NCBI GenBank assembly: GCA_020852815.1
Contig: JADZAN010000010.1
Location: 124,001-188,000, forward strand
Reading direction: 5' to 3'
Origin: Gemmatimonadaceae bacterium
Lineage (GTDB): Bacteria; Gemmatimonadota; Gemmatimonadetes; Gemmatimonadales; Gemmatimonadaceae
Length of the DNA: 64,000 nt
Below are positions 33,426 to 50,623 of this stretch, in pieces. Position 1 is the stretch's first letter. Each line of letters begins with the position of its first letter. The notes beneath the pieces are model-generated. The model ran no database searches. It was not told where the DNA came from and saw nothing but the letters and a program-made list of their open reading frames with translations. The position numbers and the translations under genes were made by a program.

Positions 33426-33788
33426 GTGAGCCACACGGTACTGATCTGCGACGACGCCATCTTCATGCGCACCATGCTGAGCGACATCCTGCAGCAGGCG
33501 GGATTCGACGTGGTGGGCGAGGCCGAAACGGGAGCCCAGGCGGTGGACAAGTACCGCGAGCTGCGCCCTGACCTGGTCACGATGGACATCGTGATGCCCG
33601 ACATGGGGGGGATCGACGCGGTGCGCGAGATCACGCGCCAGGATCCGGCCGCCAAGGTGCTGATGTGCAGCGCGATGGGGCAGCAGGCGCTCGTCGTGGA
33701 GGCGATCCAGGCGGGCGCGAAGGACTTCGTCGTGAAGCCGTTCCAGCCCTCGCGCGTGTTGGAGGCGGTGCAGCGCGTCCTGGGCTGA
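33426..33788 (+). CDS. cheY: CheY-like single-domain response regulator
   Basis: The 120-residue receiver domain has no output domain. The acidic pair is CDD near the N-terminus. The phospho-acceptor Asp is in LVTMDIVMPDMGG, and the conserved Lys is in FVVKPFQPSR. The GTG at 33426 follows GGGGAGAG by six bases. A longer reading from 33390 would add an unconserved start. Its likely kinase is the CheA encoded next. With no flagellar genes in view, its target may be the MglA or PATAN proteins of the same cluster. Confidence 0.93.
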   Translation: MSHTVLICDDAIFMRTMLSDILQQAGFDVVGEAETGAQAVDKYRELRPDLVTMDIVMPDMGGIDAVREITRQDPAAKVLMCSAMGQQALVVEAIQAGAKDFVVKPFQPSRVLEAVQRVLG

Positions 33789-33816: not shown

Positions 33817-35856
33817 ATGGATTCGGCCCGGTACCGCGACCTCTTCCTGACCGAGGCACGCGACCACCTCGTCGCGATCAACCAGGCGCTGATCGCGCTG
33901 GAGCACATCCCGCGCGCGTCGCAACCGGCGGCAGGGGCGGGCGATGGCGCGAGCGATGGGGCGACGCGCGCATCGGTCGACGCGCTTTTCCGCGCCGTGC
34001 ACACGGTGAAGGGGATGAGCGGGGTGATGGGTTACGTGGCGGTGGGTTCGTTGTCGCATGCGATGGAGACGCTCCTCGCGCGCGTGCGCGCGGGGGAGGA
34101 GGCGCTCGACGGCGAGCAGCTCGCCCTCCTCTTCGACGCGTCCGATGCGCTGGAGGCGGCGATCGAGGGGGCGGCGGGTGCGCAGGAGTCGGCGCTCGAC
34201 GTGACGTCGCTCGTGGAGCGTCTGCAGGGGCGTGCCTCGGTCGTGAGGGCGATGGCGGCCGACTTGGCGGCTGTTGCACCCGGCGGTCCCGCGCTCCCGG
34301 CGGGAGACGGCGTGGCGGTGCACGTCGTGCTCGAGCCTGGGACGATCCTTCCCGGGGCGCGGGCGCAACTCGTCGTGGCGCGCGCGCGCACGTTGGGCGC
34401 GGTGACCGCCGTCGTCCCCGACGAAGGGGCGATGCTGGGCGACGAATTCGACGGGACGTTCGCGCTGCGCCTCGTGTGCGACGCCGACGATGCGGCGATC
34501 GAGGGCGCGTTGCGCGCCGCGGGATTCGTGCAGGGCGTGCGCGTGGTGCATGGCGCCGCCGGCGCGCCGCGCCCCGCGGCGGGGCGCGTTGCGCCTGACG
34601 GCGACGCCGATGCGCCGGATGCCGCCGTGCCGCGCACCGCTGCGCCGCGCCCCGACGCCGAGGCGCGGTTCGCTGCCGCGTGGGGGAGCGAGGCGCTCAA
34701 GGCACCGCTCCAGCGCTACGTCCGCATCGACCTGCGACGCCTCGACCAGCTCATGGCGCTGGTAGGCGAGCTGATGATCGTGCGCGGGCGGCTGGCGCAG
34801 CGCGCCACGCTGCACGCGGATCCCGCGCTCGACGAGGCGGTCTCGGAGGCGTCGCGCTTCATCGGGGAGCTGCAGGACGCGGTGCTGGGCGGACGCATGG
34901 TCCCGGTGTGGCAGGTCTTCGACCGCTTTCCGCGTGTGGTGCGCGATGCGGCCCGGACGCTGGGCAAGGACGTGGAGTTCGTCATCGAGGGGCGCGAGAT
35001 CGAGCTCGATCGCTCGCTCCTGGAGCAGGTGGCCGATCCGCTGGTGCACCTCCTGCGCAACGCCATCGATCACGGGATCGAGGATCCCGACGCGCGCCTC
35101 GCCGCCGGGAAGCCCGCCGCCGGCCGCCTGACGCTGAGTGCGTCGCGCGAGCGGAACGCGGTGGTGATCCGCTTGCGCGACGACGGACGCGGGGTGAGCC
35201 GGGCTCGCGTCCTTGCCAAGGCCAAGGCGCTGGGGCTCGTGGACGAGGAGCGCGAGTCGCTCGAGGACGAGGAGATCCTGCGCGTGATTGCCCGCGCCGG
35301 CTTTTCCACGGCCGAGCGGGTGACGGAGCTGTCGGGGCGCGGGGTGGGAATTGACGCGGTGGTCTCGCGCGTGCGCGCGCTGGGTGGGGTGGTCGACCTG
35401 CGGAGCGCGGAAGGGGAGGGGACGACTTTCTCGCTTCGGCTTCCGGTGACGCTGGCGGTGATCCCGGCGCTTCTGGCCCGGGTGGGGGGGGAATCGTATG
35501 CCCTCCCGCTGACGCACGTGACCGAGACGCTCCAGCTGTCGCGGGGGGTGGTGAGGACGGTACGCGGGCGCGAGGTAATCGTCATTCGTGAGGAGGTTCT
35601 CCCGCTCCTCCACCTGCGGGACGTGGTGGGACTTCCCGGACGCGACGCGGGGCACGACGCCTCGGCGTCGCATGTGGTGCTGGTGGAAATGGCGGAGCGG
35701 CGCGCCGGGCTGGTGGTGGACCAGTTGGTGGGCCAGGAAGAGATCGTCGTGAAGCCGTTCGACGCCGTGCGCGGCGCCGCTTCGTGCTTCAACGGCGCCA
35801 CGATCATGGGCGACGGTTCGGCGGCGCTCATCCTCGAAGTGGGCAGCCTGCTGTAG
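33817..35856 (+). CDS. cheA: Chemotaxis histidine kinase CheA
   Basis: CheA autophosphorylates and passes phosphate to CheY and CheB. The 679-residue protein has an HPt (P1) domain with H62 in AVHTVKGMSG, a P2-like region (about 165-250) and an Ala/Pro-rich linker. The dimerisation helices follow, then the HATPase domain (LLRNAIDHGIEDP, DDGRGV, GRGVGIDAV) and a C-terminal CheW-like P5 domain ending in ALILEVGSLL. The P1-P2 architecture is complete, so kinase activity is expected. It lies between cheY and cheC. Confidence 0.95.
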   Translation: MDSARYRDLFLTEARDHLVAINQALIALEHIPRASQPAAGAGDGASDGATRASVDALFRAVHTVKGMSGVMGYVAVGSLSHAMETLLARVRAGEEALDGEQLALLFDASDALEAAIEGAAGAQESALDVTSLVERLQGRASVVRAMAADLAAVAPGGPALPAGDGVAVHVVLEPGTILPGARAQLVVARARTLGAVTAVVPDEGAMLGDEFDGTFALRLVCDADDAAIEGALRAAGFVQGVRVVHGAAGAPRPAAGRVAPDGDADAPDAAVPRTAAPRPDAEARFAAAWGSEALKAPLQRYVRIDLRRLDQLMALVGELMIVRGRLAQRATLHADPALDEAVSEASRFIGELQDAVLGGRMVPVWQVFDRFPRVVRDAARTLGKDVEFVIEGREIELDRSLLEQVADPLVHLLRNAIDHGIEDPDARLAAGKPAAGRLTLSASRERNAVVIRLRDDGRGVSRARVLAKAKALGLVDEERESLEDEEILRVIARAGFSTAERVTELSGRGVGIDAVVSRVRALGGVVDLRSAEGEGTTFSLRLPVTLAVIPALLARVGGESYALPLTHVTETLQLSRGVVRTVRGREVIVIREEVLPLLHLRDVVGLPGRDAGHDASASHVVLVEMAERRAGLVVDQLVGQEEIVVKPFDAVRGAASCFNGATIMGDGSAALILEVGSLL

Positions 35857-35884
35857 GCGTTTAGGGATCCCAAAGGAGCGAGTG

Positions 35885-36505
35885 ATGCACGACCTGCTGA
35901 GCCTCAAGCCGGTGCAACTGGATGCCCTGCGCGAAGTCGCCAACATCGGCGCCGGGCATGCCGCCACGGCGTTGTCGCAGATGACGGGGCAGACGATCAT
36001 GATCGCCGTCCCGACCATCAACATCACGCCGCTGGAGGAGGTCCCGCCGTCGATCGCGGCGCCTGACGAGCCGGTGGCGGCGGTGCTGATGAACATGCTG
36101 GGCGACCTCACCGGGCGCACGCTCCTGGTCTTCCCCAAGCCGACGGCGATTCGACTGGGGGAGTTGCTGCTGCGCCGGCCGCACGTGGGCAGCGGCGAGC
36201 TCACGGAACTCGAGCAGTCGGCCATCAAGGAGGCGGGCAACATCCTGAGCGGCGCGTACATGAACGCGCTCAGCGAGTTCATGGGGCTGCTCCTCCTCCC
36301 GTCGCCGCCGTCGCTGGCCATCGACATGTCGCGCGCGGTGCTCACCACGGCGTACCTGCAGTTCGGCTCGGATCGCGACCTCGTGTTCTGCGTGGAGACC
36401 GAGTTCTTCATGCAGGAAGCCGGCGAGCACCTGCGCGGCTACTTCCTCCTGCTCCCGGACATGCCGTCGCTGCGCGCCATCCTGCGGGCGGTGAACCTGG
36501 GCTAG
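35885..36505 (+). CDS. cheC: CheC-type CheY phosphatase
   Basis: CheC dephosphorylates CheY-P, often together with CheD. The 206-residue protein has the two conserved E-x2-N blocks, REVANIGAGHAATALS and EAGNILSGAYMNALSEF, so both active sites look intact. The ATG at 35885 sits six bases after AAGGAG. The GTG three bases earlier would be too close. cheD lies in the same cluster about 9 kb downstream. Confidence 0.94.
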   Translation: MHDLLSLKPVQLDALREVANIGAGHAATALSQMTGQTIMIAVPTINITPLEEVPPSIAAPDEPVAAVLMNMLGDLTGRTLLVFPKPTAIRLGELLLRRPHVGSGELTELEQSAIKEAGNILSGAYMNALSEFMGLLLLPSPPSLAIDMSRAVLTTAYLQFGSDRDLVFCVETEFFMQEAGEHLRGYFLLLPDMPSLRAILRAVNLG

Positions 36506-36508
36506 CGC

Positions 36509-39223
36509 ATGACGGTCGTGTTGTCCTCCGAACGCGATCGCGAGGTCTTGCGGTCGTTCGCGCACCGGATCGATGCCGGTGACGCGGGCGCGCACAACAA
36601 CCTCGGCGTCCTCTACTTCAACAAGGGGATGACGGCGGAGGCGGTGGCGGCGTTCACGCGCGCGCTCGAGCTCGACCCCCGCATGACCATCGCCCAGCGC
36701 AACCTCGAGATTGCGTACTTCAACTCGGGCTACTACGACGCGCGCCTGCGCGCGCTGCGCGAGCGGCTGGCGACGCATCCGCGCGACCGCGCCGCGCGCT
36801 GGGAGCTGGGGCGCACGTACGCGCTGCTGGGCGACACGCGCCAGGCAGCCGACGCCTTCGGGGCGCTGCTGCGCGAGGATCCCGACGACGTGGACGCGAT
36901 GTTGCAGCTGGCGCTGGCGGAAGGCGCCGGCGGCGATGCGGAACACGCCGAGCGGTGGCTGCAACACGCAGTGCAGCTCGCCCCCGCGCGCGCCGACCTG
37001 CACGTGCACCTGGGGCAGACGGCGTATCATCGCGGGCTCAATGACGAGGCGCTGCGTCACCTGCAGCGCGCCGTGCAGCTGGCGCCGGACGACGCCGACG
37101 CGATGTACCTGATGGCGTTCGTGCTGGGCGACCTGGGGCGGCACGAGGAGGCGCGCGAGGCCTCGCGCGAGGCCATGAAGCGCAATCCGGCGTTGGGGAA
37201 GGCACAGGCCAACCTGTCGCTCGAGCGCTTCGATGCCCGCTCGTACGAGCGCGTGCGCGAGGCGCGCGAGGCGCGCGGCCTCCCCGACCAGATGCACGTG
37301 GCGGAAGATGGGCAGCTCGCGCACTTCAACCTCGGCCTCGCCTTCCGGCAGAAGGGATACCTGGCCGAGGCGCTGCGCGAGTACCGGCTGGCGCTCGATC
37401 GCGGCGAGGATCGCACACTGGTGCTGCAGGCAATGGCCGAGGTCCACCTGCTGCGCAAGGAGTCGGCGGCGGCGGTGCAGCTGTATGACCGCCTGCTGCA
37501 GGAGCTGCCGCACTCGCCCAAGCTGTGGAACGAGCGCGGGATCGCGCTGCACCAGGATGGGCGGCACGCCGACGCGGCCGCCAGCTACGAGCGGGCCATT
37601 GCGGCTGACGAGCACTACGTCCTGGCGCTGAACAACCTCGGCGTGGCGCACGACCACGCGGGGCGGCCGGATCGTGCCTTCGATGCCTTCCGCCGCGCGC
37701 TGCAGGAGGAACCGGGCTTCCTGAAGGGACGTCTCAACCTCGCGCTCCTCCTCTTCCGGCAGGACGACCACCAGAACTGCCTGGAGGCGTACCGCCAGGT
37801 GCTACGCCTGGCGCCGGAGCATCCGGTGGCGTGGAACGGGGTGGGGCTGGTGCTGTCGCACCTGCGCAAGTTCGAGGATGCGCGCAACGCCTTTGCACGT
37901 GCGGTGGAGGCGCGGCCGGGCTACGCCGAGGCGCACTACAACCTGAGCTTCGCGCTCTCGAACCTCGGCGACTTTGCCGGGTCGCTGCGCGAGACCAAAC
38001 GTGCGCTCGAACTCGATCCGTACTACACACCGCAGAAGTTCGAACTCGCCGTCGACCTCGAGTTCGAGGACCCGCTGCTCGAAGTTGCCCCCGACCTGGG
38101 TGGCGAGCGACGCGACCAGGGCGTGGACGAATTCGCCTTCGAACCACAGGCACTGGAACGGTTGTTCGAGGAGATCGCGCCCGAGCACCAGCCGCTGAAG
38201 GCGGGGCGGGGGAGCACGCCCTTCGCGGCGGGGCTGGCGCTGGCGGCGGAGGGAAGCCTCGAGCGCGCCGCGGCCGAGCTGCGCCGCGCCATCGCCGAGG
38301 GGGCGCCGCGCGACCTGGGGCTCGTGGCGTTAGGCGATGTCTTCCTCGCACACGGTGCGGCGGGTGAGGCGCTGGAGCGCTTCCGCGAGGCGCGCACGCT
38401 CACCCCGACGCTGCGCGCCGCCGCCGTCGGTGAGCTGCGTTCGCTCGCGATGCTGCGGCGTCACCGCGACGCCATCGACGTGGCGCGGTGGGTCGAGGAG
38501 AACGCGGCCGACGATGTCGACGCGCTCCTCCTCGTGGCCGACGTGCTCGCCGAGACCGACGCGACCGACGACGCCCACGCGATCCTGGCGCGCGCGCGGC
38601 GGCTGGCGCCGATGCGCCCGGACGTCCTGCAGGCGATTGGTCGCGTGGCGCACGTGGTGGGCGACGACCTGCTGGCGATCGAGTCGTACCGGCACGCGAT
38701 CGCGCTGGACGAGGACTTTGCCGCCTGCCGCGTGCAGCTGGCGGAGCTGCTGCGCGCCGCCGGACTGCTCGACGATGCGGAGCGCGAACTCGAGGCGGCG
38801 CTGGTGAGCGTCCCGACCTACGGGGATGCGGTGCTGGCGCTGGCCGCGCTGCGGCGGGAGACGGCTCGCGCCCTGGAGACGATCGACCTCCTCGCCACCT
38901 TTCTCGAGAGCGACCCGTATCACCTCGATGCGCTCGCGTCGCTGGGAGAATCGCTCTTCCTGGCCGGGCGCCGCGACGACGCACGCTTCGCCTTCACGCG
39001 CGTCCTGCGCTTCGACGGCGACCACGTCGGGGCGCTCTACTTCACCGCGGTGCTGCTCGCCGAGGCGCACCGCTACGACGAGGCCATGGCGCACTGGGAG
39101 CGCGTCACCGACCTGGAGCCGGCCTCGCCGTTCGCGCGCCGCGCCCGGCGCGACACGCGCACCGCGCAGGACCTGCAGCGCATCTTTGTCGGTCGTCCGC
39201 ACCGCGACGACGCGAGCGCCTGA
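36509..39223 (+). CDS. Large TPR-repeat protein of the chemosensory cluster
   Basis: The 904-residue protein consists almost wholly of tetratricopeptide repeats (for example NNLGVLYFNKGMTAEAVAAF and LNNLGVAHDHAGRPDRAFDA), with a non-repeat spacer at about residues 515-560. There is no signal peptide, so it is probably cytoplasmic. TPR arrays bind partner proteins, and here it may be a scaffold for the Che/MglA proteins. That role is inferred from position. It lies three bases after cheC and three bases before the next gene. A GTTAGGC motif is at 38320-38326. Confidence 0.85.
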   Translation: MTVVLSSERDREVLRSFAHRIDAGDAGAHNNLGVLYFNKGMTAEAVAAFTRALELDPRMTIAQRNLEIAYFNSGYYDARLRALRERLATHPRDRAARWELGRTYALLGDTRQAADAFGALLREDPDDVDAMLQLALAEGAGGDAEHAERWLQHAVQLAPARADLHVHLGQTAYHRGLNDEALRHLQRAVQLAPDDADAMYLMAFVLGDLGRHEEAREASREAMKRNPALGKAQANLSLERFDARSYERVREAREARGLPDQMHVAEDGQLAHFNLGLAFRQKGYLAEALREYRLALDRGEDRTLVLQAMAEVHLLRKESAAAVQLYDRLLQELPHSPKLWNERGIALHQDGRHADAAASYERAIAADEHYVLALNNLGVAHDHAGRPDRAFDAFRRALQEEPGFLKGRLNLALLLFRQDDHQNCLEAYRQVLRLAPEHPVAWNGVGLVLSHLRKFEDARNAFARAVEARPGYAEAHYNLSFALSNLGDFAGSLRETKRALELDPYYTPQKFELAVDLEFEDPLLEVAPDLGGERRDQGVDEFAFEPQALERLFEEIAPEHQPLKAGRGSTPFAAGLALAAEGSLERAAAELRRAIAEGAPRDLGLVALGDVFLAHGAAGEALERFREARTLTPTLRAAAVGELRSLAMLRRHRDAIDVARWVEENAADDVDALLLVADVLAETDATDDAHAILARARRLAPMRPDVLQAIGRVAHVVGDDLLAIESYRHAIALDEDFAACRVQLAELLRAAGLLDDAERELEAALVSVPTYGDAVLALAALRRETARALETIDLLATFLESDPYHLDALASLGESLFLAGRRDDARFAFTRVLRFDGDHVGALYFTAVLLAEAHRYDEAMAHWERVTDLEPASPFARRARRDTRTAQDLQRIFVGRPHRDDASA

Positions 39224-39226
39224 GCC

Positions 39227-40369
39227 ATGGCGATCGAGGGCCCGCTCCGCGAACTCGGCATCCATGACGTCTTCCAGCTCCTCGACCTGAGCCGGAAGAC
39301 GGGACGGCTGCGCGTGACGTCGGCGCTGCGCGACAACGAGGGGACGGTGTACTTCAAGGACGGGCGCGTCATTTCGGCAAACGTCCGCTCCAACCCGCAC
39401 CCGTTAGGTGCGGTCCTCCTCCGCGCCGGCAAGGTGGTGGGCGACGACCTCGAGGCGGCGCGCGCCCTGCAGCAGGCACCTGGCGAGTCGCGCCGCCTGG
39501 GGGAGATCCTCGTCGCGATGGGCGTCATCACGCAGCGCGAGCTGGAACGCCAGGTGCGCCGCCAGGTGGAGGCGGTGGTCTTCGAGCTCATGTCGTGGCA
39601 GGAAGGGTTCTTCTCCTTCGCCGAGATCGAGCTGGACGGCATCACGGTCGACGCGACCACCACCGTCGCTACCGAGGCGCTGCTGATGGAAGGCGCGCGC
39701 CGCGTGGACGAATGGACGCAGATGCAACAGCGCATCCCGCACATCGGCGTCGTGGCGTCGCTGGCACCGGTCGATGCCGAGCACCCGACCTCACTCGACC
39801 TCCTCCCGAATGAGTGGGAAGTGCTGGCGGCGATCGATGGGGAGCGCGACCTGCGCGGGGTAGCGGCGTCGCTCGGGCGCAGCGAGTTCGAGGTGGCCAA
39901 GATCGCCTTCGGGCTTGTGGCGACCGGCGTGATCGTGGTCCGCGAACCGGCGCCGCTCACGGCAACACGGCACGAACCCGGCGAGCTGGCCACGCTGCTC
40001 AACGATGCACGCGACGCGCTACGCGACCAGCGCGCCGAGGATGCGCTGTCGTTCGCCGCCACCGCGATTGCCCTCTCCCCGCGCGACCCCGAGGCACGGC
40101 TGCTCATGGCGCGCGCCCTTTTCCACCTCGAGCGCGACGTGGAGGCCGAGGAGGAGTTGCAGCTGTCGCTGGAGATCGATCCGCGCAATGCGAGTGCGCT
40201 GATGGACGCGGCGCGCCTGGCGGCGCGTCGCGGCGAGCTGGCGTCGGCCATCGCCTACTGGCAGCGCGTGGTGGCGGTGCATCCCGGCTCCCTGCTCGCC
40301 GAGCAGGCGCGCGACGCGATTGCGCATGCCACTCGGCTGAGCGCGATGCTGGAGGCAGTCGATGCCTGA
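39227..40369 (+). CDS. DUF4388 (PATAN) protein with TPR-like C-terminus
   Basis: The 380-residue protein begins with a DUF4388/PATAN domain (residues about 1-160), with GPLRELGIHDVFQLLDLSRK, TGRLRV and GTVYFKDGRVISA. A winged-helix-like segment follows (about 190-245), and then TPR-like helices. PATAN domains often sit next to receiver domains and GTPase-control genes and are thought to mediate protein contacts in two-component networks. It is paralogous to the protein at 44238. The stop overlaps the next gene by eight bases. Confidence 0.85.
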   Translation: MAIEGPLRELGIHDVFQLLDLSRKTGRLRVTSALRDNEGTVYFKDGRVISANVRSNPHPLGAVLLRAGKVVGDDLEAARALQQAPGESRRLGEILVAMGVITQRELERQVRRQVEAVVFELMSWQEGFFSFAEIELDGITVDATTTVATEALLMEGARRVDEWTQMQQRIPHIGVVASLAPVDAEHPTSLDLLPNEWEVLAAIDGERDLRGVAASLGRSEFEVAKIAFGLVATGVIVVREPAPLTATRHEPGELATLLNDARDALRDQRAEDALSFAATAIALSPRDPEARLLMARALFHLERDVEAEEELQLSLEIDPRNASALMDAARLAARRGELASAIAYWQRVVAVHPGSLLAEQARDAIAHATRLSAMLEAVDA

Positions 40370-41429
40370 CGAGATCGCGCGCCTCAGCGAGGCGCTCGCG
40401 CACGACCCGGCGGGGATGGGGTGGATCCCCCTCGCCGACGCGCTGCGCCGTGCCCGCCGCCTTCCCGCCGCCGAGCGCACCGCGCTGCGCGGGCTGGAGC
40501 GGCATCCGTACCAGGGCGATGGACACGACGTCCTGGCGCGCATTGCAGCCGACGGCGGTGACCTTGGGCGCGCGCGCGACGAGTGGGAGATGGCGTTGCG
40601 GCTGGAGCCGCGACACGTCGGGGCCCGGCTGGGACTGGGGTGGCTGGCGTGGCGGAACGGCGACCAGGCGGGTGCGCAGCGCTGGTGGCAGGGGGCGCAC
40701 GACGTGGCGCCCAACGACCCGCGTGTGCGGGCCGCTGGTCGCCAGTTGCAACGCGCCGCGGGGACGGGGGAGGCATCGCCATCGCCCCAGATGACCGCCG
40801 CCGCCACCACCGCCGCCACCCTCACCGCCACCGCCCCTTCGCCCGCACCGTCGCCGGGTGTGGCCCCCGCCGGCGCGCGCTCCATCCTGCGCCCCCTCAC
40901 CCCGTCGGACGAGGCAAACGAAGTACAGCCGGCGCCGGCCCCTCCGCCCGCGCGCGCCGCCGAGCCGCGGCGCGGCGGAGTGAAGCCGGCGGTGACGTCG
41001 TCGCTCCCGGCCAACGCGCCGGTGCCGCTGCCAGCCAACGCGCCGGCGCCGGCCGAACACCCGGGCGACGCGCGATCGGTCTTTGCCTCCATCGTGCGCG
41101 GTGGGGCGAGGTTCGCCCTCCTCGTCGATGCCGATGGGCTGGTACTGGCCGGGGCGACCGCCGTTGCGTCTGGCGAGGACCGAAGCGACCTGCTGGCCGC
41201 CGAACTGTCCGGGCTGTCGGCCGAGGCGCAGGTGGCGCTGCAGCAGTTGCAGCTGGGGGCCTGGGAGCACGTGCTCGTCGAGGGCGACGCGGCCACACTG
41301 GCGCTTGCGCCCGGCGGCGCGGCGACCATCACGCTCGTGGCCACCGCGGCGGGCACCCCCGCCGGCTTGCCGCGCCTCCTCCTCGACCGCGCGCGTCAGC
41401 GCGCCGAGCAGTGGATGGCGTCGCTGTGA
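40362..41429 (+). CDS. TPR - linker - Roadblock/LC7 protein
   Basis: The 355-residue protein has N-terminal TPR-like helices (about 1-130), a long Ala/Pro/Thr-rich linker (about 135-235, with a repeated LPANAP) and a C-terminal Roadblock/LC7 domain (about 240-350, GARFALLVDADGLVLAG). Roadblock proteins such as MglB regulate small GTPases. The mglA gene lies two genes downstream. It overlaps its neighbours on both sides. Confidence 0.8.
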   Translation: MPDEIARLSEALAHDPAGMGWIPLADALRRARRLPAAERTALRGLERHPYQGDGHDVLARIAADGGDLGRARDEWEMALRLEPRHVGARLGLGWLAWRNGDQAGAQRWWQGAHDVAPNDPRVRAAGRQLQRAAGTGEASPSPQMTAAATTAATLTATAPSPAPSPGVAPAGARSILRPLTPSDEANEVQPAPAPPPARAAEPRRGGVKPAVTSSLPANAPVPLPANAPAPAEHPGDARSVFASIVRGGARFALLVDADGLVLAGATAVASGEDRSDLLAAELSGLSAEAQVALQQLQLGAWEHVLVEGDAATLALAPGGAATITLVATAAGTPAGLPRLLLDRARQRAEQWMASL

Positions 41430-41776
41430 ACGCGCGCACCATTGCCCCGGGGCTCGATGCGCTGGCGCGCCTGCGCGGCGTGCGCGGTGTCGTGCTGACG
41501 TCGGAGCGCGACGCGCTCCCCATCGAGGCGCGCGCGCATGTCGACGTCGATGTCGATGCGCTCGCCGCCTTTGGCACCGGACTGTATCGCCGCGCGTGCG
41601 CCGTGGCCGACGTCTCGGACGCCGGCGGCGTGCGCATCGTCTCGATCGACGCCGCCCACGGACGCGTGGCGGCAACAGCACGCGGCGAGTTGCTCATCGT
41701 CGTCCTCGCCGATCGCGAGGCGCATCCGGGACTGCTGCGCGTGTCGCTGCAGCGGGCGCTGGAGGGGCTGGCCTGA
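41426..41776 (+). CDS. Stand-alone Roadblock/LC7 protein, MglB-like candidate
   Basis: The 116-residue protein starts at GTG 41426 (GTGA overlap with the preceding stop) and consists of one Roadblock/LC7 domain, with GLDALARLRGVRGVVLTSERDALPI at its start. It lies 27 bases upstream of mglA, the usual position of the MglA GTPase-activating partner MglB. Similarity to MglB beyond the fold is not established here, so no symbol is given. Confidence 0.75.
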   Translation: MNARTIAPGLDALARLRGVRGVVLTSERDALPIEARAHVDVDVDALAAFGTGLYRRACAVADVSDAGGVRIVSIDAAHGRVAATARGELLIVVLADREAHPGLLRVSLQRALEGLA

Positions 41777-41803: not shown

Positions 41804-42415
41804 ATGCCCATCGTCAACTACGCCTCACGCGAGATCACCTGCAAGATCGTGTACTACGGTCCCGGTCGATCCGGCAAGACGACGAACCTGCACTACATCT
41901 ACGACCGCGTCCCCGACGCACGGCGCGGCTCGATGGTCTCGCTCGCCACGCAGAACGAACGCACCCTGTTCTTCGATTTCCTCCCGCTCGACCTCGGGAC
42001 GATCTCGGGCTTCAAGACGCGCTTCCAGCTGTACACCGTTCCCGGCCAGATCTACTACCGCGCCACGCGCAAGCTCGTCCTCACGGGCGCCGATGGCGTG
42101 GTCTTCGTGGCCGACTCGCAACGCCGGCAGCTCGACGAGAACATCGAGAGCCTGCGCGACATGCACGAGGTGCTGGCGGAGCAGGGGGTCGACGCGCGCG
42201 CGCTCCCGCTGGTGCTGCAGTACAACAAGCAGGACCTGCCGCACGAGCTGATCTGCACGCCAAGCGCGCTCGACGATGCGCTGAACTTCCGCGAGGTGCC
42301 GAGCTTCGCCGCCGATGCGCTGGCGGGGAATGGCGTCTTCGAGACATTGCGCAAGGCGTCGGAACTGGTGCTGCGCCGGCTGGGCAGCGCCGCCACCGTC
42401 GGGGCGGGGAGGTAG
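41804..42415 (+). CDS. mglA: MglA-type polarity GTPase
   Basis: MglA is a Ras-like GTPase that sets cell polarity and controls gliding or type IV pili in Myxococcus and Thermus. The 203-residue protein has the P-loop [10 protein letters not shown] (K25), the characteristic [13 protein letters not shown] in place of the canonical DxxG, and NKQDLP for guanine specificity. It follows two Roadblock proteins, a standard MglB-MglA layout, and is followed two bases later by the tandem AAA+ gene. Confidence 0.95.
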
Positions 42416-42417
42416 CG

Positions 42418-44238
42418 ATGCTCGACGGACGCTTCCGCTTCGACAACTTTGTCGTGGGGCCGGCCAATCGCCTGGCGGCGTCGGCGGCGCGCGCCGTGGC
42501 CGAGGCGCCGGGGGCGGCGTACAACCCGCTCTTCATCTACAGCTCGTCCGGCCTCGGCAAGACGCACCTGCTGGGGGCCGTTGGGCATCTCGCCCGCCAG
42601 CTGCATCCCGGGCTCGCCATCGAGTACCTCACGCTCGACGACTTCGTGGCGCAGCTGCACCAGGCCATTGCCACGGGGCAGGCCGACGCCTTCAAGCGAC
42701 GCTATGCCGGCGTCGGCCTCCTGCTGCTCGACGACGTTCAGTTCCTCACGGGGCGCGTGGAGACGCAGAGCGAGCTGCTGCGCGTCTTCAACGCGCTGCA
42801 GGGAAGCGGGCGACAGATCGTGATGACGTGCGACCGCGCGCCGTCGGACATCGCCGACGTGGATGAGCGACTCGTCTCGCGCCTGGCGGGCGGGCTCCTC
42901 GTCGACGTCGGTGTCCCCGACTACGAAACGCGGGTGGCCATTCTCCGCGCCAAGTGCGCCGAGCGCGACGTGCGCTTTGCCGCTGGCGTCCTGGAGGAGC
43001 TGGCCCGCTCGCCCGTGCACAATGTCCGCGAGCTGCAAGGTGCACTCAACCGGCTCATCGCGCACCAGGCGCTGCTCGACGCGCCGCTCGGGCTCACCGA
43101 GGTGTGGCACGTGTTGGGGAACGCGCGCACCACCGAGTCGGCACCGCCTGACGAGTTCGAGAACTTCCTCACCGACCTCGCCGCCACGGTCGCCGAGTCG
43201 GTCGAGACGTGGCGCGTGACGCTCGGCGAACGCATTGCGCGATGGTCGGGCCAGGGGATCCTCACCGGACGCCTGGAGCGCGAACTCGCGCGACAGGATC
43301 CCCCGGACCTCGACGCGCTCGAGGCAACGTTCGCCGCCGACGTCGAGCGGTTGCGCGCGCTGGAAGGCGAGGCCATCCGTCTCGATCCAACCGCGGCCGG
43401 CCTCCCGGTCTTTCGTGACCCGGAGCGCCTGGCCGAGGCGGAGGACGTCGTGGCGCGCCTCATCGTGCAACGCGAACCGCTCCCGGCGCCGCGCGCGGGC
43501 TATCGCCTGCACGACCTCGTGCGCACGGCGCGCAACCGCATGGCCATCCAGGCGGCGGCGGCGGTGATCGAGTCGCCGGGGTCGCGCTACAACCCGCTCG
43601 TCATCCACGGACGATCGGGCTCCGGGAAGACGCACCTCGCGCACGCCATCGGCAATGCGCTCCGCTCCCGCGACGAGCAGGGGTGCTCGGTGGCCTGCGT
43701 CGAGGCAAACGACTACATCGAGGAACTCATCGACGCGTTGCAGCTGGGCACGGTCGAGCGCTGGCGTGCCCGCTATCGCACCGCCGACGTGCTCATCGTC
43801 GACGGCGTCGAGGCCCTGGCCGGAAAGGAGCGCACGCAGGAGGAGTTCTTCCACCTCTTCAACGTCTTGCAGCAGGCGGGGCGCCAGCTCATCCTCACGC
43901 TCGATCGCCCGCCCGCAGAGATCCCGGGGTTGCAGTCGCGCCTGCGCTCGCGCTTCGAGGGAGGGCTGGTCGTGGAGATGGCGGCCGTCGACGGCGACGA
44001 TCGATGGGGACGCACCACGCCAGTGCACGCCGGCGACGAAGCGGCCGCCCCGACGATCGACGCCGTGGTCGAGGCCGCGCTGTCGCCCGCGGGCGACGAG
44101 GAACGCGACGACCACCTTCCCGACTTCGACGCACTTGCGCGCGCCTCGCAGCCGCTGGATTCCTTCTTCCTCGACGCCGAGAAGGTCGTGGCCGAATGGC
44201 CGCTGGTTGACGGGCGCGTGCTCGAGGAGTGGCGCTGA
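42418..44238 (+). CDS. Tandem DnaA-like AAA+ protein without a DNA-binding domain
   Basis: The 606-residue protein contains two DnaA-domain-III-type AAA+ modules. Module 1 (about 1-235) has YNPLFIYSSSGLGKTHLL with Walker A K48, Walker B LLLLDDVQFL (D105-D106) and the sensor-2-like VRELQGALNRL. Module 2 (about 360-530) has YNPLVIHGRSGSGKTHLA with K404, Walker B VLIVDGVEAL (D462-G463, so the usual second acid is missing), ERTQEEFFHLFN and DRPPAEIPGLQSRLRSRFEGG. It lacks the sensor-2/lid part. The DnaA domain IV helix-turn-helix is absent. It is not the replication initiator. It lies between mglA and a PATAN protein, which suggests an ATP-driven switch in this cluster. The function is unknown. 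Confidence 0.88.
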   Translation: MLDGRFRFDNFVVGPANRLAASAARAVAEAPGAAYNPLFIYSSSGLGKTHLLGAVGHLARQLHPGLAIEYLTLDDFVAQLHQAIATGQADAFKRRYAGVGLLLLDDVQFLTGRVETQSELLRVFNALQGSGRQIVMTCDRAPSDIADVDERLVSRLAGGLLVDVGVPDYETRVAILRAKCAERDVRFAAGVLEELARSPVHNVRELQGALNRLIAHQALLDAPLGLTEVWHVLGNARTTESAPPDEFENFLTDLAATVAESVETWRVTLGERIARWSGQGILTGRLERELARQDPPDLDALEATFAADVERLRALEGEAIRLDPTAAGLPVFRDPERLAEAEDVVARLIVQREPLPAPRAGYRLHDLVRTARNRMAIQAAAAVIESPGSRYNPLVIHGRSGSGKTHLAHAIGNALRSRDEQGCSVACVEANDYIEELIDALQLGTVERWRARYRTADVLIVDGVEALAGKERTQEEFFHLFNVLQQAGRQLILTLDRPPAEIPGLQSRLRSRFEGGLVVEMAAVDGDDRWGRTTPVHAGDEAAAPTIDAVVEAALSPAGDEERDDHLPDFDALARASQPLDSFFLDAEKVVAEWPLVDGRVLEEWR

Positions 44239-45854
44239 TGGCCATCCGGGGCTCACTCCGCGAAGCGTCGCTCCCCGACGTCCTGCAACTCCTCGCGATG
44301 GGGAAGAAGAGCGGCTGCCTCAGCGTCACGCATCGCAACGCCTTCGGCAACATCTATTTCGACCGCGGGCGCATCTCCTATGCGTCCATCGTCAACCGGC
44401 GCGACCGCCTGGGCGACATCCTCGTCAAGGACGGCCTCATCTCCCACGCCGACCTCGAGGCCGCCATCGCCGTGCAGGCGCTGTCGCCCGAGCGCAAGCT
44501 GGGCGAGATCCTCGTCGCGCAGCGCGTCCTCGCGCGCGAGGAGTTGCACCAGTACATCAAGCACCAGATCGAGGAGGCGGTCTACTTCCTCTTCACCTGG
44601 AACCAGGGGACCTTCTCGTTCGAGGCCGACATCCGCCCCGACGCGCAGGACATCCTCGTTTCCATCAACCCGGAGTCGCTCCTCCTCGAGGGGGCGCGCC
44701 GGGTCGACGAGTGGTCGCTGATCGAGAAGAAGATCCCGTCGTTCGACATCATCTTCTCCATCGATCGGCAGCACCTGCTCGACAGCAAGGTGGAGTTGAC
44801 GCCGGAACAGGAGTCGCTCGTCCCCAGCATCGACGGGCAGCGCGACGTGGCCGCGCTCATCGACGAATCGGGGTTGGGGGAGTTCGAGGTGGGGAAGGCG
44901 CTCTACGGGCTCATCACCGCCGGCTTCATGCATCGCGTGGGGCGCACGCGCGCCCCGGAGCCGGTGAGCCAGGAGGCGCGCATCACGGAGCACCGCAACC
45001 TCGGCGTCGCCTTCTACAAGACGGGGATGCTCGACGAGGCGATGCGCGAGTTCCGGCGCGTCGCCGAGTTGCGCCCCGGCGACGAGCACGGCGAGTTCTA
45101 CCTCGGCCTCCTCGCGCTGCGCCAGGGGCGCCTGGAGGAGGCGGTGCGCACGCTGCGCACCGCGGCTGCTCGCCCCGCCGCCAAGGGGGCCACGCACCTC
45201 AACCTTGCCTATGCGCTGGAGCGCTCCGGGCGACTGGACGAGGCCCGCCTCACCCTGGCGCGCGCCGAGCAGCTCCTCGGGAACGACCCCACGTTGCGCC
45301 TGGCGGGGGCCGTCCTGGCGCTGCGCCGCCACGACGTCGCCGCCGCCGACGAGGCGTTGCGTGATGCTGCCGCGCTTTGGGGAACGCGCAAGCGCCCCGC
45401 GGCATGGTTCCACTACGCCGGCCTGGTCGCCGCCATCCTCGGCGACCTCGATCGTGCGCTCACCGTCCTCGAGGAGGGCGTCACCGTCCACCCGCATTCC
45501 GCCGTTCTCCTCAACAACCTCGCCACCGTGCTGGAGCGCCGCGGGCGCCATGCCGAGGCGACCAGCGTCGCCGATCGCGGGCAGATCGAGGATGCGTCGC
45601 TGCCGCAACTGCACAAGAACGCCGGCGACCTGCACTACCGCGCCGGTCGCTACGACGACGCGCTCGATTGCTACATGCGCGCCGTGCGCGCCGCCCCCGA
45701 CCTCGGCGGCGACGTCTGGCTCAAGCTCGGCAACATCCGGTTCCGCCGGCGCGAGCGCGAGGAGGCCATCCGCTGCTGGGAACGCTCGCTCGCGCTGGCC
45801 CCCGACAATCCCATGGCGCGCACCAACCTCGAGACCGCGCAGCGGCTCGCCTGA
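44238..45854 (+). CDS. DUF4388 (PATAN) protein with TPR array
   Basis: The 538-residue protein has an N-terminal DUF4388/PATAN domain (residues about 1-165; GSLREASLPDVLQLLAMGKK, FGNIYFDRGRISYA), a middle wing-like segment (about 190-240) and TPR repeats to the end. It has the same order as the protein at 39227, but the TPR array is longer. The ATG overlaps the previous stop as TGATG. The two PATAN proteins bracket the Roadblock/MglA/AAA+ genes. Confidence 0.85.
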   Translation: MAIRGSLREASLPDVLQLLAMGKKSGCLSVTHRNAFGNIYFDRGRISYASIVNRRDRLGDILVKDGLISHADLEAAIAVQALSPERKLGEILVAQRVLAREELHQYIKHQIEEAVYFLFTWNQGTFSFEADIRPDAQDILVSINPESLLLEGARRVDEWSLIEKKIPSFDIIFSIDRQHLLDSKVELTPEQESLVPSIDGQRDVAALIDESGLGEFEVGKALYGLITAGFMHRVGRTRAPEPVSQEARITEHRNLGVAFYKTGMLDEAMREFRRVAELRPGDEHGEFYLGLLALRQGRLEEAVRTLRTAAARPAAKGATHLNLAYALERSGRLDEARLTLARAEQLLGNDPTLRLAGAVLALRRHDVAAADEALRDAAALWGTRKRPAAWFHYAGLVAAILGDLDRALTVLEEGVTVHPHSAVLLNNLATVLERRGRHAEATSVADRGQIEDASLPQLHKNAGDLHYRAGRYDDALDCYMRAVRAAPDLGGDVWLKLGNIRFRRREREEAIRCWERSLALAPDNPMARTNLETAQRLA

Positions 45855-45857
45855 CGC

Positions 45858-46385
45858 GTGACGATCGTGACCACTCCCGTCGCCGCTCCTGACATTCACG
45901 TGAATGTCGGCGAAGCCGCCGTGCTCCGCGAGCGCGGCGTGATGGCCAGCGTGGGACTGGGCTCATGCGTCGCCATCGTGCTGCACGATCGCGTGGCACG
46001 CGTGGGCGGGATGGCGCACGTGCTCCTTCCGCACGAGGCGCTGTCGCGAACGCCCGGGAAGCCGTCGCGCTTTGCCACCACCGCGGTGGGGCACCTGCTC
46101 ACGCTGATGCGTGACCTCGCGCGCGCCGCCGAACCCGGCGCAACGGTCGATGCCGCCGAGGCGCGCATCGTGGGCGGCGCGTCGATGTTCGCCGCGCTGC
46201 TCAACGGTGGCGGCATCAACATGGGAGAGCGCAACGTGCACGCGACGCGCCGTGCGCTGGCCGCGGCCGGCATTCCCCTTGTTGCCGAAGATACCGGCGG
46301 CGATTTCGGGCGCAGCGTCTACTTCGATGTGGCCACCGGCGAGCTCCGCGTCACCTCGATTCGACATGGCGAACGCCTTCTCTAG
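45858..46385 (+). CDS. cheD: Chemoreceptor glutamine deamidase CheD
   Basis: CheD deamidates receptor glutamines and can stimulate CheC. The 175-residue protein shows the catalytic cysteine in VGLGSCVAIVLHD, the histidine in GGMAHVLLPH, and the ARIVGGASMF and NVHATRRAL blocks. It starts at GTG 45858, three bases after the preceding stop, and overlaps cheB by 20 bases. No receptor substrate is encoded in this window. Confidence 0.94.
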   Translation: MTIVTTPVAAPDIHVNVGEAAVLRERGVMASVGLGSCVAIVLHDRVARVGGMAHVLLPHEALSRTPGKPSRFATTAVGHLLTLMRDLARAAEPGATVDAAEARIVGGASMFAALLNGGGINMGERNVHATRRALAAAGIPLVAEDTGGDFGRSVYFDVATGELRVTSIRHGERLL

Positions 46386-47580
46386 CCGGCGCACGGTGCT
46401 CGTCGTCGACGACTCGCCGTTCATCCGGCAGGTCGTGCGCGACCTCATCGACAGCTCACCGGAGTTTGTCGTCATCGGGGAGGCAGGGGATGGCCACGCC
46501 GCTCTGGCCATGGTGCACGAGCGCCAGCCCGACCTGGTCACGCTCGACGTGCAGATGCCGGGGCTCGATGGCCTGGCGACGCTCGGCTATCTCATGAGCG
46601 AGGCGCCACGCCCGATCGTGATGCTCAGCGCCCTGGGCGACGGCGGCGAGACGACGATGCGCGCGCTCGAACTGGGAGCGGTGGACTTCGTGCGCAAGCC
46701 GGGGAGCGGCGATGTCCTCGACCTCGTCACCCTGCGCGAGCGACTGCTCGGTGCGCTCCGCACCGCGGTCTCGGCGCACTATCGCTCGGTCCCCGTGCTG
46801 GCGCGCGCGCGCTCGGCGGCGGGTGGGCGCGTGCGCACACCGCCGGCGCTGAGCGCGCTCCCCGTACGAGCGGCTACGCACGTCGTCATCATCGCCTCGT
46901 CCACCGGTGGGCCGCGCGCCCTGGCGGAGATCGTGCCCTCGCTCGCCATCGGTGACGCGGCCGTCGTCATCTGCCAGCACATGCCGCCCGGTTTCACGGA
47001 GAGCCTGGCCCGCCGCCTCGATGCCCTGGCGAGCGTTCCCGTCACCGAGGCGGTGGATGGGGAGCTGTTGGCCGCCGGGCGTGTCTACGTTGCACCTGGC
47101 GGCGTGCAGACGACGCTGCACCCCGGCCAGGGCACGTTGCGGCTGGCGGTGCGCCCCGGCCCCCCCGTCCACGGCGTCGTCCCCGCTGCCGATCCGCTCC
47201 TCCGCACGGCGGCGGAGCACCTTGGCCCCCGCGCCATCGCCGTGATCCTCACCGGCATGGGACACGATGGCGCGCGAGGCACGCGCCTCCTCCGCGAGGC
47301 CGGCGGCTTCGCCATCGTGCAGGACGAACAGACCTCCATCGTGTATGGCATGCCGCACGCGGCGCTCGCGCTGGCCGGCGCCGATAACATCGCACCGCTC
47401 GGCGAGGTCGCTGCCGCCATCGCGACCGGGCTGCAGCGCCGCGGGTGTGACGTGGAACGCATTCCGGCGAGCGCGCCGGGCCATGGTGACGTCGCACCGC
47501 GCTTGCGCGGCGATGCCGACACGAGGAAGGCGCGTGACGCGCGGCGCCCGGCAACGGTCAATTCCCAGGATGATGCCTGA
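46366..47580 (+). CDS. cheB: Chemotaxis protein-glutamate methylesterase CheB
   Basis: The 404-residue protein has a receiver domain (VLVVDDSPFIRQVV, phospho-Asp in LVTLDVQMPGLDG, KPGSGDV) followed by the methylesterase domain. Its catalytic residues are the Ser in ASSTGGPRA, the His in CQHMPPGFT and the Asp in GMGHDGARG. A 45-residue Arg-rich tail follows. The partner methyltransferase CheR is not in the window. The ATG lies inside the end of cheD. Confidence 0.95.
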   Translation: MANAFSSRRTVLVVDDSPFIRQVVRDLIDSSPEFVVIGEAGDGHAALAMVHERQPDLVTLDVQMPGLDGLATLGYLMSEAPRPIVMLSALGDGGETTMRALELGAVDFVRKPGSGDVLDLVTLRERLLGALRTAVSAHYRSVPVLARARSAAGGRVRTPPALSALPVRAATHVVIIASSTGGPRALAEIVPSLAIGDAAVVICQHMPPGFTESLARRLDALASVPVTEAVDGELLAAGRVYVAPGGVQTTLHPGQGTLRLAVRPGPPVHGVVPAADPLLRTAAEHLGPRAIAVILTGMGHDGARGTRLLREAGGFAIVQDEQTSIVYGMPHAALALAGADNIAPLGEVAAAIATGLQRRGCDVERIPASAPGHGDVAPRLRGDADTRKARDARRPATVNSQDDA

Positions 47581-48106
47581 CGCCGCACTTTCGCCCAGTT
47601 CGCTCAGCGCCTTCGTGCGATTCCGCGACCGTGTGCGGGCGCGTACCGGGTCGGCGGAGCTGTTGGCGTTTCGCCTGGGGGATGAACGGTTCGCCTTCGA
47701 CGTTCGCGCGCTCGACGAGGCCGTCGACCAGCCGCATGTCGAAATGACGCCGGTCAACGGCGCGGCGATCCTCGTTGGGCTCATGCGCCATGCCGACCGC
47801 TCGATTCCCGTCTTCGACACGGCACGAGTGCTCGGCGTGCGGCGCGACACCCTCGCGGCCGTCGACGCGCCATCGCAGGTGCTGGTGATGCGAAGCGGTG
47901 CGCGCCGTATCGCCCTGCTCGTCGATGCGATCGACGATGTGGTCACCCTCGAACTCACGACCATCCAGCCTCCCCCGTTCGATGCCGGCGATGAACTCCT
48001 CATCGGGGTGACATGGAATGGAGAGGACGGCGACCTGACCGCCATCCTCGATGCACGCGCGCTCATCGTGCATTGCCAGCAGCGCGCACCGGAGGTGGCG
48101 GGATGA
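47570..48106 (+). CDS. cheW: CheW-like adaptor (second)
   Basis: The 178-residue CheW domain protein has a 30-residue N-terminal extension, then LLAFRLGDERFAFDVRALDE, the LVGLMRHADRSIPVFDTARVLG core, and LLVDAIDDVV. Two adjacent ATGs (47570, 47573) could start it. It overlaps cheB by 11 bases and the third cheW by four. Having several CheW proteins with one CheA suggests several receptor arrays or division of labour. Confidence 0.88.
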   Translation: MMPDAALSPSSLSAFVRFRDRVRARTGSAELLAFRLGDERFAFDVRALDEAVDQPHVEMTPVNGAAILVGLMRHADRSIPVFDTARVLGVRRDTLAAVDAPSQVLVMRSGARRIALLVDAIDDVVTLELTTIQPPPFDAGDELLIGVTWNGEDGDLTAILDARALIVHCQQRAPEVAG

Positions 48107-48693
48107 CCGCGCGCACGCGTTCCGCGTCGACGGCCGCAGGGGCGACGATACGCCTTGTCACCTTTGGTGTGAGTGACGCGTGGTATGCGGCCGACATCGC
48201 CTTCGTCGAGCGCGTCCTGCGCAGGGAAGGGGTGCATCCCGTTCCCAACATGCCCACGTGGATGGACGGCGTGCTGGAGCACCACGGGCGCTTCGTCCCC
48301 GTCATCGACCTCTGCCAGCGTTTCGCGCTCCCCGGTGCCGCGCCTTCCACTCCTGTCACGGCGCATGCCGCCACCGCGCACGCCGGCGACGCCCATCGGC
48401 ACCCGGCCGCGGGCGGAACGCAGGGGCGACTCCTCCTCCTGTCGTCAGGCCAGGAGGTCGTGGCCGCCGCCGTGGACCGCGTCGTCGATGTGCGGGCGGT
48501 ACAGCTGACGGACATTGCCCCGCCGCCGGCCCTCGTGCGCGGCGTCACCGGTGAGTTCATCACCGGCATGGTGCGGCGCGACCAACAGGTGGTCTACATC
48601 CTCGACATCGCGAAGCTCCTTTCGCCCGACGAGCATCGCGCGCTCGACGGATACCGGGTCGAACCCTCCGATCGAGCCCTCTCGCCGTCGTGA
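48103..48693 (+). CDS. cheW: CheW-like adaptor (third)
   Basis: The 196-residue CheW domain protein has RLVTFGVSDAWYAADIAFVE, then GVLEHHGRFVPVIDLCQRF, an inserted Ala/His-rich loop (about 85-105), and VVAAAVDRVVDVR. The ATG is preceded by GGAGGTGGCGGG. It overlaps the second cheW by four bases and the following TPR gene by one. Confidence 0.9.
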   Translation: MTARTRSASTAAGATIRLVTFGVSDAWYAADIAFVERVLRREGVHPVPNMPTWMDGVLEHHGRFVPVIDLCQRFALPGAAPSTPVTAHAATAHAGDAHRHPAAGGTQGRLLLLSSGQEVVAAAVDRVVDVRAVQLTDIAPPPALVRGVTGEFITGMVRRDQQVVYILDIAKLLSPDEHRALDGYRVEPSDRALSPS

Positions 48694-49595
48694 TGCCTGA
48701 CGAGTCCCTGGCCACCCTGCGCGCACACCATGAGTCGCTGCGCGTCGCACTCCTCGCCCCCGACGCCCCGGGGCGCCGCGACGCGCTCAAGGCTGAGATC
48801 ATCGCGCTCTACAAATCCATCGAGCGCGAGATGGCGGACCTTGCCGCGCTCAAGGAAGACGTGAAGGGACTCGTGCAGCAGTGGAAGTCGCTCGACGAGG
48901 TACACGGACAGGCGGTGGCGGCCGTCGGCGCCGCGCCGGCTCCGCCGACCGAGACGATTCAACCGCCGGCGGCCGATGCTCCCACGCGCGCCGACCACCT
49001 CAACGCCTCCACCTACCTCGAGAAGGGGTGGAGCCTGATGTCGTTAGGCGATCATGCCGGCGCCGAGGCGGCCCTCACCCGCGCGCTGGAACTCGCCCCC
49101 AACGATCCGCACGGCGAGTCGCTGCTCGGGTGGGCGCAGATGCTCCAGGACAAGCACGACGACGCACTCCTCAACTTCCAGAAGGTCCTCATGCGCCAGC
49201 CGCAGAACTCGCTCGCGCGCATCAACGTGGGCTACATCTGCCTCAAGAAGAAGATCTTCGGCGAGGCGATCGAGCACCTGTCCAAGGCCATCCGGCTCGA
49301 CAACGATCGCAAGGCCACGCTCTACGCCCACTACTACCTCGGCCTCCTCTACCTCGAGCGCGAGATGTACGAGGATGCGCAGAACTTCCTGCGAAAGGCG
49401 ATCGCCCTCGGCCCAAACCTCATCGAGGCCTATTACGAACTGGGGCGCGCCATCTTCTTTGCCGGCGATCGCGACGGGGCGCTCGGCGCGTGGCGCGACG
49501 GCGCGCGCCAGAACAAGTTCAATCCATGGGGGAAGCGCTGCGCCGAGCTGTTGCAGCACGTGGAGGGTGGCGGCGTCCCGCCGCGCTCCGCGTAG
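48693..49595 (+). CDS. TPR-repeat protein ending the chemosensory cluster
   Basis: The 300-residue protein has an N-terminal coiled coil (about 1-70), a Pro/Ala linker and then TPR repeats (for example ADHLNASTYLEKGWSLMSLG and ARINVGYICLKKKIFGEAIE). No signal peptide is seen. The ATG overlaps the previous stop (TGATG). It is probably another protein-binding partner of the cluster. The gap of 62 bases after it, the largest since 33425, suggests the cluster ends here. A GTTAGGC motif is at 49043-49049. Confidence 0.82.
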   Translation: MPDESLATLRAHHESLRVALLAPDAPGRRDALKAEIIALYKSIEREMADLAALKEDVKGLVQQWKSLDEVHGQAVAAVGAAPAPPTETIQPPAADAPTRADHLNASTYLEKGWSLMSLGDHAGAEAALTRALELAPNDPHGESLLGWAQMLQDKHDDALLNFQKVLMRQPQNSLARINVGYICLKKKIFGEAIEHLSKAIRLDNDRKATLYAHYYLGLLYLEREMYEDAQNFLRKAIALGPNLIEAYYELGRAIFFAGDRDGALGAWRDGARQNKFNPWGKRCAELLQHVEGGGVPPRSA

Positions 49596-49657
49596 TCCGT
49601 CGATTCGCCGGTCGCCCGGGGAGCCTTGGCCGGGGCGGCGGTAGCGGTTGGAGCGTC

Positions 49658-50623
49658 ATGGCCGTCCTGATCGCCGTCGCGCTCGCCGTTTGTGCCCGGA
49701 GCGCGGCGACCCAATCGCCCCCCGATCGCCTCGAGCGCGGGCGTGTGACCGTCGAGTCCTACCCGCAGGACGCCGCCCTCGCCCGGTCGCTCCTGAACGA
49801 AGCCATCCGGTTCGACACCTTTCCCGGTCTCCCGCGCCCCCAGTCGCCCCTCCTCATCCAGGTGGCGCCGGACCGGGAGACGTTCCGGTCATGGATAGGC
49901 CCGGGGGCGCCGGAATGGGGGGCGGCGTTTGCCATCCCCGGCGAGCGGCGCATCATCCTGCAGGGGCGTTCCGCCCCGTCGGATGCCGGCGATCCGCTGC
50001 GGGCGCTGCGGCACGAGTTGGCGCACCTCGCCCTGCATGAATACCTGGGCGATCTGGCGCCGCGGTGGTTCGACGAGGGGTATGCGTCTTATGCGGCGGG
50101 CGAGTGGGACCGGGAGCAGGTGATCGCGACCAACGTGGCGCTCGCTTGGCGTGGCGTGCCGTCGCTCGAGGCGCTCGATTCGGGCTTCTTTGCCGGCCCG
50201 TCCCGCGCCGATGCGGCCTACGCGCTGGCGCACCGCGCCGTCGCGGAGTTGGCGGCGCTGGACCCGCAGCGCGGACTCACGCTCCTCCTTGAGTATTGGA
50301 AGGAGGAAGGGGCGTTCGAGCCGGCGCTGCGCCGCGCCTACGGGATGACGCAGGGGCAGTTCGAGCAGCGGTTCCGGGCGCAGACGCGACGGCGCTACGG
50401 CGTGCTGGCACTGGCCGCCGACGTCATGATCGCCTCGACCCTGGTGGTGTTCTTCGTCGGGCCGTTCTGGCTGATTCGCCGGCGCAGGGACAAGGCGCGG
50501 CTGGCGGCGATGCGCGTCGCCGACCAGGAGGCCGAGCGTCGCGAGCGGGAAAGCGCGCTGGAACTGCTCCTGCGCGACGCGGCGCCGACCTCGTCGGAGG
50601 GACCAACATTGAAGGACGATTAA
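49658..50623 (+). CDS. Membrane-anchored gluzincin-like protein
   Basis: The 321-residue protein has a signal peptide (AVLIAVALAVCARSAAT), a peptidase-MA-like domain with HELAHLALHE and then RWFDEGYASYAAGEWD (HExxH plus a downstream Glu), and a C-terminal membrane helix (about 258-278) followed by a charged cytoplasmic tail. It is probably an extracytoplasmic zinc protease or a chaperone-like relative. The substrate is unknown. The ATG follows GGAG by five bases. Confidence 0.82.
   Translation: MAVLIAVALAVCARSAATQSPPDRLERGRVTVESYPQDAALARSLLNEAIRFDTFPGLPRPQSPLLIQVAPDRETFRSWIGPGAPEWGAAFAIPGERRIILQGRSAPSDAGDPLRALRHELAHLALHEYLGDLAPRWFDEGYASYAAGEWDREQVIATNVALAWRGVPSLEALDSGFFAGPSRADAAYALAHRAVAELAALDPQRGLTLLLEYWKEEGAFEPALRRAYGMTQGQFEQRFRAQTRRRYGVLALAADVMIASTLVVFFVGPFWLIRRRRDKARLAAMRVADQEAERRERESALELLLRDAAPTSSEGPTLKDD

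Follow-up and report, generated by a model that had tools for sequence, protein, structure and literature searches.

The window, the whole stretch of 64,000 nucleotides analysed here, holds a forward-strand run that extends from cheW, cheY, cheA and cheC through to two further cheW genes and a TPR gene, and within it lies an ORF encoding a tandem DnaA-type AAA+ protein. The genes of the run are listed below, DUF4388 being a domain that we take to be the Pfam form of the PATAN (PatA N-terminal) domain.

32946 to 33374, forward strand: CheW
33426 to 33788, forward strand: CheY-like single receiver domain
33817 to 35856, forward strand: CheA
35882 to 36505, forward strand: CheC
36509 to 39223, forward strand: 904-aa TPR protein
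39227 to 40369, forward strand: second DUF4388-TPR protein (profile match)
40362 to 41429, forward strand: TPR plus roadblock protein (Robl_LC7, 2.3e-8)
41426 to 41776, forward strand: Roadblock/LC7 protein, MglB-like (Robl_LC7, 1.6e-6)
41804 to 42415, forward strand: mglA, Ras-like GTPase (profile match)
42418 to 44238, forward strand: tandem DnaA-domain-III AAA+ protein, 606 aa (ORF, Pfam, relatives)
44238 to 45854, forward strand: DUF4388-TPR protein, the most persistent neighbour (Pfam DUF4388, 1.7e-38)
45858 to 46385, forward strand: CheD
46363 to 47580, forward strand: CheB
47573 to 48693, forward strand: two CheW genes
48690 to 49595, forward strand: TPR protein

Between 32946 and 49595, the annotated genes include three CheW genes and CheA, CheB, CheC, CheD and CheY, and neither a methyl-accepting receptor nor CheR is one of them. 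As the first-pass annotation had noted, the tandem gene lies two bases from mglA, its ATG at 42418 following the mglA stop at 42415, and its own stop overlaps the start of the downstream DUF4388-TPR gene by one base.

Pfam matched Bac_DnaA in two stretches of the 606-aa protein (E=2.3e-103), and an AlphaFold2 model (mean pLDDT 86.9, pTM 0.49) shows two AAA+ modules in one chain, so that the initial observation of a tandem DnaA-type AAA+ protein is confirmed. The protein is ordered as a first module (M1), a helical linker domain, a second module (M2) and a C-terminal tail; in the model, the two AAA+ modules are bridged by the helical domain and followed by a disordered stretch and the short tail, the placement of M1 relative to M2 being unreliable because of the low pTM. 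A search for tandem DnaA-AAA modules, which had been proposed as a check, recovered a conserved family, and since relatives of the same architecture at 39 to 76% identity are spread across the phylum, the arrangement is not a chance one. The features of the protein, with their conservation among the sequences compared, are as follows.

42421 to 43083, forward strand: M1, residues 2-222, AAA+ ATPase module with lid and intact motifs (Foldseek, motif conservation)
42550 to 42567, forward strand: M1 Walker A GLGKTH, K48 (K in 68/68)
42730 to 42735, forward strand: M1 Walker B D105-D106 (D105 68/68, D106 66/68)
42880 to 42882, forward strand: M1 arginine finger R155 (63/68)
43027 to 43029, forward strand: M1 sensor-2 R204 (64/69)
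43150 to 43473, forward strand: helical domain linking the modules, residues 245-352, which contains the EFxxFLxDI helix (F250 64/69, W265 64/69)
43495 to 43995, forward strand: M2, residues 360-526, AAA+ core without lid (Pfam, model, motif comparison)
43627 to 43629, forward strand: M2 Walker A GSGKTH, K404 (K in 49/63)
43801 to 43806, forward strand: M2 Walker B position, D462-G463
43951 to 43953, forward strand: M2 arginine finger R512 (59/63)
44164 to 44235, forward strand: C-terminal tail FFLDAEKVVAEWPLVDGRVLEEWR (W594 in all rows, E588 68/69, P595 66/69), kept in reduced forms
44224 to 44229, forward strand: GAGGAG, spanned by codons of the tail and probably serving the following gene as ribosome-binding site (E603 codon GAG in 32/33)

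M1 superposed on domain III of Bacillus subtilis DnaA (8bv3) with a TM-score of 0.95 by target length and 41% identity. The claim that M1 has intact Walker motifs and a sensor-2-like helix was borne out, K48, D105-D106 and R204 being present and near-invariant in relatives, and the constancy of these catalytic residues suggests that hydrolysis has been selected for in most lineages. Between strands 2 and 3, both modules carry the initiator-specific insertion of two helices, predicted at 73-85 and 89-97 in M1 and at 430-443 and 446-454 in M2.

M2 was described at first as keeping Walker A, carrying D-G in place of the acidic pair and lacking a lid. This holds for the 606-aa protein and not for its family: D occupies the second Walker B position in 44/63 relatives and G in 15/63, so D-G is a lineage trait, K, D-D and R occur together in the M2 of 40/63 tandems, and several relatives retain the lid and the sensor-2-like arginine. 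The accompanying proposal, that M2 binds ATP and cannot hydrolyse it, does not stand as worded, given those 40 relatives, and would fit the lineage of the window only. The M2 arginine finger is retained even where Walker A and B are lost; in family f5, both ATP motifs of M2 are gone while the RLRSRFEGGL and ERAQ(D/E)EFF boxes remain. The f5 pattern is as would be expected were M2 to serve as an arginine-finger face, although M2 also keeps positions that in DnaA contact single-stranded DNA (ssDNA).

DnaA is the protein that starts chromosome replication and is generally known as a DNA-acting initiator. The tandem protein resembles it in that both modules are Bac_DnaA and M1 superposes on the B. 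subtilis structure, and differs in its two modules per chain, its added linker and tail, its non-replication locus, its separate position in the tree and its lack of domains I and IV. The protein begins at domain III, and no Bac_DnaA_C match was found in it by Pfam; nor did Bac_DnaA_C appear in the set of 25 Pfam families that most members match, and the domain-IV signature was found in none of the family, with 36 of 43 loci positive in the control, in keeping with the initial claim that domain IV is absent. The true dnaA of the genome lies on another contig (C9), encodes 464 aa that include domain IV sequence and an extension at the N-terminus, and adjoins a 368-aa sliding-clamp-like (dnaN) gene; the tandem gene is not beside replication genes. 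A profile scan of the genome contigs returned canonical DnaA proteins and one Hda-like protein, told apart by their tails. In a tree of AAA+ cores, M1 (100/99, single-module forms included), M2 (100/98) and DnaA (99/95) formed three separate groups, which is consistent with one origin for each of the two modules; the tree is unrooted and thus does not give sister status to M1 and M2. The 606-aa protein scored 455.5 against the NCBIfam DnaA equivalog TIGR00362, above its cut-off of 343.9, and the gene would therefore probably be named dnaA by automatic annotation.

By our reading of the search results, a tandem or single-module form occurs in 106 of 200 genomes of the phylum, and neither form was found in family f10, which belongs to another class. 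The family was not found in one searched genome named Gemmatimonadaceae. Across 132, 119 and 299 genomes of three other phyla, no tandem was found at E<=1e-92, a threshold applied with no positive control and one that distant forms could escape. The sole match in that search (G353) lies in a 506-aa frame and is limited to positions 3-240, so it is not a tandem. No published description of the protein was found in the open-access literature.

The order TPR, DUF4388-TPR, TPR-roadblock, mglB, mglA, tandem gene, DUF4388-TPR, cheD, cheB is shared, apart from some gaps, by families f1, f2, f3, f4, f6 and f9. At the f5 site, the tandem gene and its DUF4388-TPR neighbour stand without mglA or chemosensory genes and are preceded by ileS and a gene for a pseudouridine synthase; judging from the ORFs, the window likewise has ileS and a pseudouridine synthase gene on the upstream side. 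The f5 genomes encode only a more distant MglA, at about 53-58% identity, and the genome of the window has a second MglA-like gene elsewhere. The coupling to mglA proposed in the first-pass annotation is not the tightest tie: because f5 and the reduced forms keep the DUF4388-TPR neighbour, and the f5 locus lacks mglA, the lasting partner is the DUF4388-TPR protein. An orthologue of the latter was present in 104 of the 106 genomes with a DnaA-like form, an association test that ignores shared ancestry; in one of the two exceptions (G133) the orthologue is interrupted by a frameshift. A fold search with the DUF4388-TPR model returned mostly TPR-repeat or other helical-repeat structures and was uninformative on the DUF4388 domain. 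The helical insertion of that domain (window 44400-44560) carries LGxILVxxGxIS repeats, presumably akin to GspE/MshE N-terminal motifs.

Reduced forms were located between mglA or cheC and the DUF4388-TPR gene in other genomes. M1, linker and tail are kept without M2 in G107, G026, G052 and families f9 and f6, the tail being degenerate in G052; G080 has a degenerate M1 with linker and tail, G057 has M1 and tail without the linker, and G158 has linker and tail only. The smallest forms consist of the EFxxFL helix and the tail (G010, G062, G016, G047, G021 and G023; 57-73 aa in four of them). In these six genomes, the DUF4388 domain of the DUF4388-TPR protein is without its helical insertion (about residues 55-107 in the protein of the window), a co-loss that counts as one event and is suggestive only, since the six form one clade; G057, which lacks the linker, still has the insertion. 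In its own genome, the linker domain gave a single match. The tail is kept as protein, because W594 is found in every row and the P595 codons vary synonymously; E603-E604 were not counted as protein evidence because their codons coincide with GAGGAG, a probable ribosome-binding site for the following gene. In genomes without the tandem, DUF4388-TPR had seemed to lack its first 110 residues, a reading rejected because the N-terminus is present and only the helical insertion is gone; also rejected was a DnaA-like/DUF4388 fusion (L077, a 987-aa frame), which enters out-of-frame sequence and represents an assembly frameshift. Matches to pieces of that frame (L130, L135, L139 and L140, from its peptidase-like C-terminal part) occur near some loci and appear to reflect the type of gene downstream in the window, at about 49595-50623, and not the tandem family.

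Relatives examined lie either in a che/mgl locus or, in f5, beside DUF4388-TPR only, and none carries a domain IV helix-turn-helix or sits with replication genes, the two observations that the first-pass annotation had named as contrary to its signalling role. With moderate confidence, we interpret the protein as a DnaA-derived AAA+ protein recruited to signalling, in which the ATPase of M1 would be gated by an arginine finger from M2 and the whole docked on DUF4388-TPR within a chemosensory/MglA pathway. Architecture, motif conservation, persistent gene pairing, the reductive series and the absence of domain IV are the sequence-based support for this reading. M1 is predicted to bind and hydrolyse ATP, and M2 may act mainly as the arginine-finger partner of an M1 ATP site, either within one chain or in the neighbouring one; we propose that hydrolysis would thereby be coupled to assembly, and an assembly switch, as originally suggested, is a putative role. 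The first helix of the linker, EFxxFLxDI, and the tail, EKVVWxWP...RLIEE, would dock the protein on the adjacent DUF4388-TPR scaffold, through which it could time or shape the output of the CheA/B/C/D/W/Y and MglA/roadblock pathway. As the f5 locus is without mglA and chemosensory genes, this pathway assignment may not hold everywhere.

Retention of the ssDNA-contact positions in M2 counts against this explanation, a role as arginine finger alone appearing to have no need of them. Equivalents of B. subtilis I190 (I/V 56/63), R202 (61/63) and K222 (38/63) are kept in M2, as would suit a nucleic-acid-binding regulator in which M2, and partly M1, bound ssDNA or RNA via the initiator-specific helices and thereby linked the signalling operon to DNA state or regulated transcription. 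We consider such a regulator improbable, given that neither domain IV nor any other DNA-binding domain is present, that M1 replaces both I190 (His being commonest) and K222 (K in 1/68), that the gene context is one of signalling and that several relatives dispense with M2 altogether. An Hda-like inactivator, whose arginine finger would drive ATP hydrolysis by DnaA and so tie motility signalling to replication, is more doubtful still. M2 is like Hda in fold and profile searches, both proteins are DnaA-type AAA+ without a DNA-binding domain, and the conserved arginine finger is among the best-kept parts of M2; however, the tandem protein has two modules, no clamp-binding motif was found in the first 30 residues of any of 70 sequences, the conserved linkage is to che, mgl and DUF4388 genes and not to replication genes, and the smallest forms are without any AAA+ module.

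That the reductive series ends at helix and tail would also suit AAA+ modules that act as a nucleotide-binding conformational adaptor, with the helix and tail doing the work and hydrolysis incidental. The near-invariance of the Walker B acid pair, arginine finger and sensor 2 of M1 speaks against an adaptor of this kind, which we regard as unlikely. For this protein of a conserved signalling locus, a function as an ATP-driven switch docked on its DUF4388-TPR neighbour, and not in replication, is the probable one.

For the switch, the output would most likely be surface motility by type IV pili, on account of the Myxococcus MglA-SgmX-PilB link, the cyanobacterial PATAN-pili link and the PilB/PilT-type motor ATPases that occur in the genome. 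Cyanobacterial PATAN proteins have been linked to type IV pilus control, and the response regulators PixG, PixE and LsiR (PMC7690835) share with our locus a PATAN domain, if DUF4388 is rightly so equated; in the window, TPRs take the place of receivers in the same chain as the domain, which pairs with an AAA+ protein. In Myxococcus, the TPR protein SgmX mediates the action of MglA on type IV pili, and PATAN-domain proteins co-occur with it (PMC11580455). The MglA/MglB/SgmX-Frz polarity systems likewise combine MglA, roadblock and TPR proteins with a chemosensory set within a single pathway, whereas no DnaA-type AAA+ component was found in the passages drawn on here (PMC11580455, PMC4316618).

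Because the tandem protein passes the TIGR00362 cut-off, many genomes may seem to have two dnaA genes. Tentatively, we envisage a replication-initiator ATPase turned into a two-module switch, catalytic in M1 and supplying the arginine finger in M2, that would sit on a DUF4388-TPR scaffold and gate a Ras-like GTPase/chemosensory pathway away from DNA. If true, the DnaA machine would be reusable, with its ATPase kept and its DNA-binding domain dropped, in a chemosensory/MglA locus, and an ATP-dependent element would be added to bacterial polarity control.
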